A stretch of DNA of 27,754 nt from a virus: positions 1 through 27,754 of the IMG/VR virus record IMGVR_UViG_3300031658_000084; one strand, 5' to 3'. Under the pieces are notes generated by a model, which searched no databases, was not told the DNA's origin, and was given only the letters and a program-made list of their open reading frames with translations. Shown here one piece after another: positions 6,536-22,080 of the stretch. Every line of letters starts with the position of its first letter. Within the stretch, counting starts at the first letter, position 1. The position numbers and the translations under genes were made by a program.

Positions 6536-6541
6536 AACGGT

Positions 6542-6561
6542 GGGGCGGCTTCGGTCGCCCC
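6542..6561 (+). terminator. GC-rich hairpin after the capsid gene
   Basis: An 8-bp stem (GGGGCGGC/GTCGCCCC, with one G-T pair) closes a TTCG tetraloop just after the capsid stop codon. Only a short ATTTACT follows, so it is a weak intrinsic terminator by the poly-T rule. It may give partial termination or protect the 3' end of the capsid mRNA, raising coat protein relative to the downstream tail genes. Confidence 0.65.
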
Positions 6562-6582
6562 ATTTACTATTGGAGGGTAAAA

Positions 6583-20954: not shown

Positions 20955-21089
20955 TGTGGATCCTCCATAAAATGTCACTAAAATACCGTATAACATTTTT
21001 TTGCTTATGTGAACATTTAGTGCTTGCAAAGGTATGATGTTAACATTAGGGTAACTTATATAGAGAGACACAAACAAAGGAATACGGAT
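20955..21089 (+). promoter_or_regulatory. Divergent control region with palindromic operator
   Basis: This 135-base AT-rich gap separates a minus-strand gene from the early-type operon. On the plus strand TGAACA (21010-21015) and TATGAT (21033-21038) are 17 bases apart and could be -35 and -10 boxes. The perfect palindrome ATGTTAACAT (21037-21046) overlaps the -10 and the presumed start, where a repressor would act. Its TGTTAACA core recurs in two other promoter-like gaps of the window. AAAGGA (21077-21082) is the ribosome binding site of the next gene. Promoter calls are by eye. Confidence 0.45.
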
Positions 21090-21356
21090 ATGACAACTTC
21101 AGCAATCGCCTACGGCTCAACAATCCGCGCATATGACTTCCAGCCAATGCCTGATCGCCCCGACCAGTTCATCGAGGGCGTTATCGTTGACGCGGGAATG
21201 ATTAAGCACCCCAAGTATGGCCACAATATGTTCAGCGGCTACACAATCCAAATAACAGGTGCTGCACGCGCAGACGACCCGCGCATTGGCGACATTGGAT
21301 ACGTCCCGTTCAAAATGGACTTCATGGACTTCGATGGCCGCATCCAAAAGGCTTAA
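21090..21356 (+). CDS. First gene of the early-type operon, unknown
   Basis: 88 residues from the ATG at 21090 with AAAGGAA upstream. The protein is beta-rich: SAIAYGSTIRAYDFQP, QFIEGVIVDAGMIKHPKYG, YTIQITGAARADDP, IGYVPFKMDFMDFDGRIQ. No named family recognised, though the layout (strands with a conserved Gly-Tyr pair, ending in a D.DGRI motif) could be a small OB- or SH3-like barrel. It is followed by a strong hairpin, so the transcript may end or be cut here. As first gene under a palindromic control region it is likely expressed early (inference). Confidence 0.65.
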   Translation: MTTSAIAYGSTIRAYDFQPMPDRPDQFIEGVIVDAGMIKHPKYGHNMFSGYTIQITGAARADDPRIGDIGYVPFKMDFMDFDGRIQKA

Positions 21357-21364
21357 CGCAACAC

Positions 21365-21382
21365 GGGGAGCTTCGGCTCCCC
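21365..21382 (+). terminator. TTCG-loop hairpin after the first early gene
   Basis: GGGGAGC and GCTCCCC form a perfect 7-bp stem with a TTCG tetraloop, eight bases after the stop codon. There is no T-run (ACAGGC follows), so it is more a transcript-end or processing structure than a classic intrinsic terminator. It is of the same type as the one after the capsid gene (6542-6561). Confidence 0.6.
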
Positions 21383-21384
21383 AC

Positions 21385-21444
21385 AGGCGCCTGCGTAAAG
21401 GGGTAACGACTTACCGAAGTTATTACCCCTTTAGAGAAGCGCCT
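21385..21444 (+). other. Long nested stem-loop in the leader of the winged-helix gene
   Basis: From outside in: AGGCGC (21385-21390) pairs with GCGCCT (21439-21444); a 5-by-5 internal loop follows; TAAAGGGGTAA (21396-21406) pairs with TTACCCCTTTA (21423-21433), eleven perfect pairs; one C-A mismatch; then GACTT/AAGTT with an ACCG tetraloop. That is 22 pairs in 60 bases. It ends 24 bases before the next ATG. No T-run follows, so it is not a standard terminator. It may be an RNA processing or translation control element, or a DNA cruciform or protein-binding site. CAGGCGCCTG (21384-21393) is also a perfect palindrome by itself. Confidence 0.55.
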
Positions 21445-21468
21445 AACAATCAAGATTGGAGAGACCAA

Positions 21469-22080
21469 ATGAAAAAAGAAATCCAAGTAACCTACGTCGG
21501 CGAGAACTACGCGTTCGCCATAACGCAGGATGACTTCCAGCAAGCGTACATCCCCAACTCGATCCTGACCCAGATGGGCGACGTCGAAGTCGGCGACCTG
21601 TTGGATGCGACGATGGTCGATAACGATCGAGACCCACGCGGCCGCACGCCGTGGTTTGTCACGCACGCCGTGGTCCACCTCAAAAAGTCTGACGCCTACG
21701 AAATTTCCGACGCAGTCCGAGCCGAAATCGACTGGGCGACGCTGATCGAAAGAATATCTCCCACGACTACGCCATTTGAGCCTGACCCGCGCGTCCCAGA
21801 CGAAGACGAGAAAATCGACTTATTCTCGTGGGATCCGTTTGCCGAGACGCCCAGCATGGGCGACAAGGTCCGCGCCGCGCTGGACGAGATGGGCGACCGC
21901 CCGTTCCGCACCTCAGAGATGGCGAAGGCCCTCGGCATATCGTCAAAGCGCGCCGGCAGCCTAATGCACATGATCTTCAAGCAAAACCTAGTGTCCGTGG
22001 CCAAGATATACGACCGGCCGGACCAAGTCAGCGCGTCCTGGTCGCTGTGGTGCAAAAACGTGTCGGGGTTCTTGAAATGA
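21469..22080 (+). CDS. Two-domain protein with C-terminal winged helix, putative regulator
   Basis: 203 residues from the ATG at 21469, supported by GGAGAG upstream; the frame is open further upstream but crosses the hairpin without a good start. N-terminal ~75 residues are beta-rich and OB/cold-shock-like (VTYVGENYAFAITQDDFQQA, EVGDLLDATMVDNDRDPRGR). Residues 75-125 form an acidic linker with many Asp and Glu. Residues 130-195 form a helix-turn-helix with wing: KVRAALDEMGDRPFRTSEMA, KALGISSKRAGSLMHMIFKQ, then SVSAKIY-like strand. It may bind DNA or RNA. A nested stem-loop in its own leader would suit autoregulation, though this is inference. ATGA overlap with the next gene. Confidence 0.65.
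   Translation: MKKEIQVTYVGENYAFAITQDDFQQAYIPNSILTQMGDVEVGDLLDATMVDNDRDPRGRTPWFVTHAVVHLKKSDAYEISDAVRAEIDWATLIERISPTTTPFEPDPRVPDEDEKIDLFSWDPFAETPSMGDKVRAALDEMGDRPFRTSEMAKALGISSKRAGSLMHMIFKQNLVSVAKIYDRPDQVSASWSLWCKNVSGFLK

Follow-up and report, generated by a model that had tools for sequence, protein, structure and literature searches.

The virus record analysed here, a window of 27,754 bases, carries at positions 21385-21444 of its + strand a nested stem-loop that is an optional, single-copy, sequence-conserved palindromic site between co-directional genes. The element is not particular to the window phage, as its core is common to two distant phage groups and in nearly all cases adjoins a gene of the family of P0001, the 203-aa protein encoded next to it in the window. 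We tentatively favour a reading that may well be wrong, in which the element is an optional recognition site for a sequence-specific nucleic-acid binder, the best candidate being the neighbouring P0001-type protein, and acts on the expression of the adjacent genes. From the sequence comparisons, it would be a structured intergenic control element that is unusual in two respects, the conservation of a protein partner and the repeated inversion of its apex. The features of the locus are as follows.

21090..21356, + strand: upstream gene P0002, 88 aa, function not assigned; the slot is occupied by differing genes among element-bearing relatives
21365..21382, + strand: TTCG hairpin without T-run, 3' of the upstream gene; in this phage group, similar hairpins also occur after other genes, with no element present
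21385..21444, + strand: nested palindromic element of 60 bases (lower stem 6, internal loop 5x5, upper stem 11 + 4/5, loop 4), from fold, shuffles and 61-base homologues in 13 public contigs
21396..21433, unstranded: core palindrome TAAAGGGGTAA-16-TTACCCCTTTA, the portion common to the second phage group
21407..21422, unstranded: 16-base apex CGACTTACCGAAGTTA, inverted in L043/L044; the equivalent apex is inverted in 5/40 group-2 loci
21469..22080, + strand: gene of P0001, 203 aa, predicted cold-shock-domain + winged-helix protein, candidate element binder

Structure of the hairpin in the window

Recomputation of the sequence, fold and coordinates returned the hairpin that an earlier note on this DNA had described, with 22 pairs in stems of 6, 11 and 5, a 5x5 internal loop, one C.A mismatch and an ACCG loop. 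The folding energy of -30.9 kcal/mol compares with a shuffle mean of -13.7 (z -6.15), and none of 200 shuffles equalled it. With 22 arm matches, the element is the top inverted repeat of the window (28-base arms, 3-8 base loop); dinucleotide-preserving shuffles of the window (n=200) reached 21 at most, and the repeat search of the window returned just one further arm pair of at least 14 within 60 bases. By folding energy alone, the element does not rank among the top six 70-base stretches of the window. Conservation does not extend to the innermost G.U pair, which is G.A in three, C.U in one and T.C in one of ten sequences, and the stem common to relatives is therefore 6 + 11 + 4.

The TTCG hairpin of 7 pairs ends 2 bases 5' of the element, and the ATG at 21469 follows the element after 24 bases, a spacing already given in the earlier note. 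The earlier note had also seen no T-run after the stem, and this was borne out. An intrinsic terminator, in which a GC-rich stem is followed immediately by a T-run, was ruled out because AACAATCAAG follows the stem and the element is absent from the terminator scan. Rfam 15 gave 0 matches above the curated cut-off in the whole window, and of the sub-threshold matches over 21340-21480 (best E 0.08-5) none came close to it. Two other identities were rejected. The core boxes of an attC-like site, considered from the CCTAAC end, were in reversed order when compared by eye with the consensus, and in place of an anti-Shine-Dalgarno CCTCC in the internal loop the window, L033 and L057 read CCTGC. As a promoter there is only a weak consensus match at 21010-21038. 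The intergenic region ahead of the operon (20990-21090) closely matches genome G001 and contains GTTAACATTAGGG, a possible phage promoter motif that is also found near a palindrome of genome G008.

Relatives with the complete element

Protein scans and three pattern scans found the element in 13 public virus contigs, which together with the window form the 14 records of group 1; one contig, L039, does not differ from the window in the element or its flanks. The group contains ten distinct 61-base sequences with a mean column identity of 93%, and the internal loop, 5x5 in the window, is 5/4 in L033 and L057. Recent exchange of a short segment could be a partial cause of this near-identity. Searched with a covariance model, 8 of 20 records gave exactly one element, hit on both strands at a single place, and the remaining 12 gave no hit. 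The position is constant, past the structural genes and the first gene(s) of a variable operon, with DUF6378/HTH genes coming after, and the gene upstream of the element differs among the element-bearing relatives.

The 3' neighbour of the element is a P0001 homologue in 10 of the 14 records. L078, L087 and L091 have another gene in that place, and L083 has one for a small predicted membrane protein; a P0001 homologue was not found in these four fragments. When P0001-homologue loci were counted, the element was present at 9 of 31 and absent at 22, including one (L060) where the 27 bases available upstream are too few for a decision. Synteny and both neighbouring gene families are shared by G008 (37.8 kb), which carries no element. 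Since relatives keep the flanking genes in its absence, the element is dispensable.

In the annotated phage collection, no DNA match was found around the element, and the element of either group gave chance matches only. In the genome collection, a protein scan gave 30 candidates and 0 relatives, while a DNA pattern scan gave at least 119 stretches with no element among the matches listed, one having a coincidental CCCCTTT downstream. Literature searches on roseophage palindromes, flip/flop, and phage palindromes with inversions returned nothing on this element by title among the papers listed, which is not proof of its being unpublished.

A distant phage group with the same core

A scan for the core-only pattern GGGTNANNACTTNNNNAAGTNNTNACCC, made without any protein query, yielded 55 stretches. 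Of these, 13 are in the group-1 contigs, 40 are in contigs that form a second group, and two (L235 and L268) are chance matches in which the pattern falls inside one long coding frame. The group-2 core reads GTTAAGGGGGTAAC-A-ACTTCnCGAAGT-C-ATTACCCCCTTAAC, also written GTTAAGGGGGTAACAACTTCnCGAAGTCATTACCCCCTTAAC, and consists of the upper stem only, the lower stem and internal loop being missing. Core identity averages 85% per column over 24 aligned sequences from both groups; shared proteins of the two groups are about 24-42% identical among the matches listed. The gene order in group 2, all on one strand, is D2 - D1 - (D9) - element - exonuclease - D4 - primase-helicase-like.

D1 aligns over its full length with P0001 (22-25% identical, 17 invariant columns in 28 sequences). 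A P0001 homologue was matched beside the element in 39 of the 40 group-2 loci, and the 40th contig (L238) shows its homologue as L323. Because group 2 was retrieved by DNA pattern alone, the homologue there confirms, on independent evidence, that the site and the protein are linked. Starting from D1, 46 loci were found, 40 of which have the element 21-338 bases 3' of D1. It is missing from L295, L307 and L309 (flank of at least 582 bases), while the flanks of L294, L322 and L323, at most 85 bases, are too short to judge. The element lies between same-strand genes in both groups, upstream of the P0001-family gene in group 1 and downstream of it in group 2.

Inversions of the apex

The apex is exactly inverted in two of the 14 group-1 records (L043 and L044), where the 16 bases are the exact reverse complement of the L006 apex and all flanks are unchanged. 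This change is one inversion replacing six substitutions. Of the 40 group-2 loci, 5 (L238, L251, L271, L272 and L273) have an apex turned round against its flanks; in the protein-derived set the count is 4 of 40. Flank trees require a minimum of 3 and 2 orientation changes, with well-supported branches forcing at least 2 on either; the group-2 apex has flipped in at least two separate events. The majority orientation in both groups is TAAC-R-ACTT along the direction of transcription (12/14 and 35/40), which shared history explains as well as selection does, the flips being few. An assembly artefact is an unlikely cause of the flips, as judged from the contigs. The perfect arms are just 11-13 bases long, usual assembly k-mers are longer than this, and the same flip occurs in different samples (L043/L044; L251/L271).

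Most simply, the flips would be by-products of hairpin or cruciform formation at the palindrome, for which a dedicated recombinase is unneeded, and their recurrence would make them a natural record of such formation in phage DNA. Hairpin-associated small inversions were reportedly first described in chloroplast DNA by Kelchner and Wendel in 1996, and are there mostly tolerated changes in spacers. The apex flips resemble these events, chloroplast 'minute' inversions of 4-50 bases being attributed to hairpins in one report (PMC12371153), and are unlike them in their phage setting and in palindrome arms that are conserved across distant groups. Highly doubtful is a bolder idea, that the apex is a sixteen-base heritable two-state setting, flipped without a recombinase, with a P0001-type protein reading the extruded hairpin or cruciform form and the orientation altering the readout.

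Conservation of the arms and covariation

Pairing is kept in 94.1% of alignment cells in group 1 and in 96.2% in both groups together. Each alignment has just one pair in which both partners have changed, and of the 16 upper-helix pairs 13 are invariant in the group-1 alignment. The covariation score was matched by 227 of 500 shuffles for group 1 (alignment A2) and by 35 of 500 for both groups (alignment A6). One-sided arm changes, classified by eye, comprise four kinds that are wobble-compatible on the + strand, three on the - strand and one on neither; as the kinds are about equal on + and -, there is no transcript-strand bias. On the alignments at hand, the weak covariation and the lack of strand preference would describe a conserved palindrome, RNA structure not being proven. 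Pairing alone would not require so constant an arm sequence, and this surplus conservation points to sequence-specific recognition.

These results bear on several proposals of the earlier note. The covariation that it had named as a check does not exceed the control in either alignment. The case that it had named as refuting, relatives with the flanking genes but no pairing, gave a mixed outcome: pairing holds wherever the element is present, but L005, L295, L307, L309 and G008 keep the flanking genes without the element. The roles that it had listed (RNA control, cutting by RNase III, a site acting in DNA) gain from the conservation in relatives, but covariation proving RNA structure is absent. 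The proposal of a leader that might be bound by the protein encoded behind it survives in part: the P0001 family adjoins the element in two distant groups, but the element is 3' of that gene in group 2 and has a different downstream gene in 4 of 14 group-1 records.

A second long palindrome, located between convergent genes in L228 (G001), L229 (G003) and L231 (G008), has a conserved loop, CTATTGTATAG, and resembles a bidirectional terminator or part of an origin. In G003 its stems are replaced relative to G001 and G008 and are still paired, with the loop kept. Within the same lineage, the CTATTGTATAG-loop palindrome swaps its stems, whereas the focal element preserves its arm sequence.

Predicted fold and family of P0001

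P0001 has no Pfam or PHROG family match at the sequence level. An AlphaFold2 model built from 28 sequences has a mean pLDDT of 76.9 (80-89 for residues 1-70) and a pTM of 0.37, at which the relative placement of the domains is unreliable. The N-terminal part is modelled as a cold-shock/S1-type beta barrel that superposes on CspA (Z 9.2, rmsd 1.6 A, 63 residues), the YB-1 CSD (Z 8.9) and NusA (Z 8.6), and the C-terminal winged helix superposes on the archaeal regulator 3r0a (Z 8.8) and Z-alpha 1qbj (Z 8.7). A Foldseek search of the PDB with the model gave no match at E <=0.001, the best E being 0.0034. P0001 is thus predicted to consist of a cold-shock-type domain and a winged helix, and the predicted fold agrees with the OB-like part and winged helix that had been read from the sequence. 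While its parts resemble those of cold-shock-domain and winged-helix proteins, P0001 differs from these in having no sequence-level family match in Pfam or PHROGs. We know of no described protein with this pairing of domains that is encoded beside such a palindrome.

A tblastn search with P0001 gave no match in the annotated phage collection. The family profile found homologues in the cultured roseobacter phages CRP-811, 821, 822, 823 and 831, where they are annotated as hypothetical proteins and occur without the element. These homologues suggest roseobacter-like hosts for the group of the window. The main text of the CRP phage paper contains none of the terms palindrom, hairpin, intergenic and winged helix (PMC12629253). 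In L278:9595-10056 (CRP-811), L275:9607-10038 (CRP-823) and L325:3001-3432, the homologue is followed by a gene labelled dATP/dGTP diphosphohydrolase or phosphofructokinase, and the DUF6378 gene after P0001 in the window parallels this order.

Other palindromes were noted near some homologues. In CRP-811 (L278:8838-9010) and CRP-823 (L275:8888-8944), a palindrome lies 3' of the primase/helicase gene and about 640-720 bases 5' of the P0001 homologue; the CRP-811 palindrome lies among many CTACAAA copies and could be an iteron-type origin. L280:1921-1958, L295 and L307 have a perfect or near-perfect palindrome, GTGTGCCGGAACC...GGTTCCGGCACAC, about 580 bases 5' of the group-2 homologue, with stems that vary in L307. 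At 19 loci of element-less homologues, no other palindrome was found at the place of the element in a scan allowing up to 1 mismatch in 13-base arms, which recovered just 2 of 5 positive controls (L033 and L280) and so gives a weak negative.

Possible roles of the element

In the reading that we favour, a protein that binds nucleic acid sequence-specifically would recognise the element, and the likeliest candidate is the neighbouring protein with its predicted cold-shock domain and winged helix. The ligand of the P0001-type protein may be the hairpin in the polycistronic RNA or the palindrome in DNA, and binding would tune the expression of the gene(s) beside it. Counting against P0001 as the binder are the homologues without the element (22 of 31 loci including L060, three group-2 loci and the cultured CRP phages), the other downstream gene in 4 of 14 group-1 records, and the side of the element, which differs between the groups. 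Through this association, a protein family with neither name nor annotation is tied to a defined nucleic-acid site as a testable binding partner. If P0001 binds the element, abundant uncultured marine phages would possess a compact control pair of protein and RNA or of protein and DNA.

In T7-type RNase III sites, pairing is kept and the stem sequence is free to vary. A hairpin for mRNA processing or stability, be it an RNase III site or an end-protecting stem-loop between co-transcribed genes, would need no dedicated phage protein, and we regard it as unlikely. Like T7 R1.1, which is given as 60 nt with a 4/5 internal loop between genes 1.0 and 1.1 in PMC6121014, the element has about 60 bases, nested stems, an internal loop and co-directional genes, the last of these in both groups, and its pairing is kept in 94-96% of cells. 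Unlike R1.1, the element occurs in one copy per record, has only its upper stem in group 2, and has arms that are conserved across distant phages; the near-invariance of these arms (13 of 16 upper-helix pairs), with no compensated drift and no covariation above control, is not the stem variation of such sites. A site acting at the DNA level, as an operator, a replication or priming site or a recombination joint, in the form of a duplex palindrome or cruciform, is rather improbable in our estimate. The inversion of the apex is a DNA event, the wobble changes show no transcript-strand bias, the group-2 element precedes an exonuclease and primase-helicase operon, and flanks are reassorted around the element (A1/A2 with B1/B2/B3 in group 2, differing upstream and downstream genes in group 1). 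However, phage boundaries reassort anyway, a dispensable element is not the sole origin, and a symmetric duplex site would not need the mostly constant orientation of the apex relative to transcription (12/14; 35/40).

The presence or absence of the element between close relatives and its differing neighbours would also suit a mobile or selfish MITE-like palindrome with no function for the phage. This is quite improbable, because there is one copy per record (8/8 positive records) and one fixed genome position in group 1, and the empty sites (L295, L307, L309 and L005) show neither clean insertion nor target duplication, the flanking hairpins differing too. It is very improbable that the TTCG hairpin and the element jointly make up a put-like antitermination RNA. 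The two consecutive stem-loops span 80 bases in a predicted early operon, similar in total length and setting to the HK022 putRNA of about 70 nt with two stem-loops, as described in PMC9378689. Unlike put, the first hairpin is of the general end-of-gene type found here and is not constant in group 2, the second is palindromic with a flipping apex, and there is no promoter directly upstream, the element being one or more genes into the operon. A protelomerase (hairpin telomere) site is scarcely credible. The nested palindrome and flip/flop apex would fit, but the centre is not palindromic and the ResT-TelK catalytic family of a cognate protelomerase was matched in 0 of 12 records, several of which are fragments. 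A tyrosine integrase/recombinase was matched in 0 of 8 group-1 records, again with several fragments, which also argues against an integrase attachment site.

Surroundings of the element

The window encodes portal, scaffold and major head proteins, as well as an SU10-type adaptor, a GTA-type holin and an exonuclease VIII-like protein. The slot after the 88-aa gene is a cassette-like variable slot: 3' of near-identical copies of this gene (window 21090-21356 and L008-L017), the next gene varies from phage to phage, and a GC hairpin marks each junction. A TTCG-type hairpin without a T-run, resembling the one that precedes the element, is located at 6541-6562 of the window, directly 3' of the major head protein gene.
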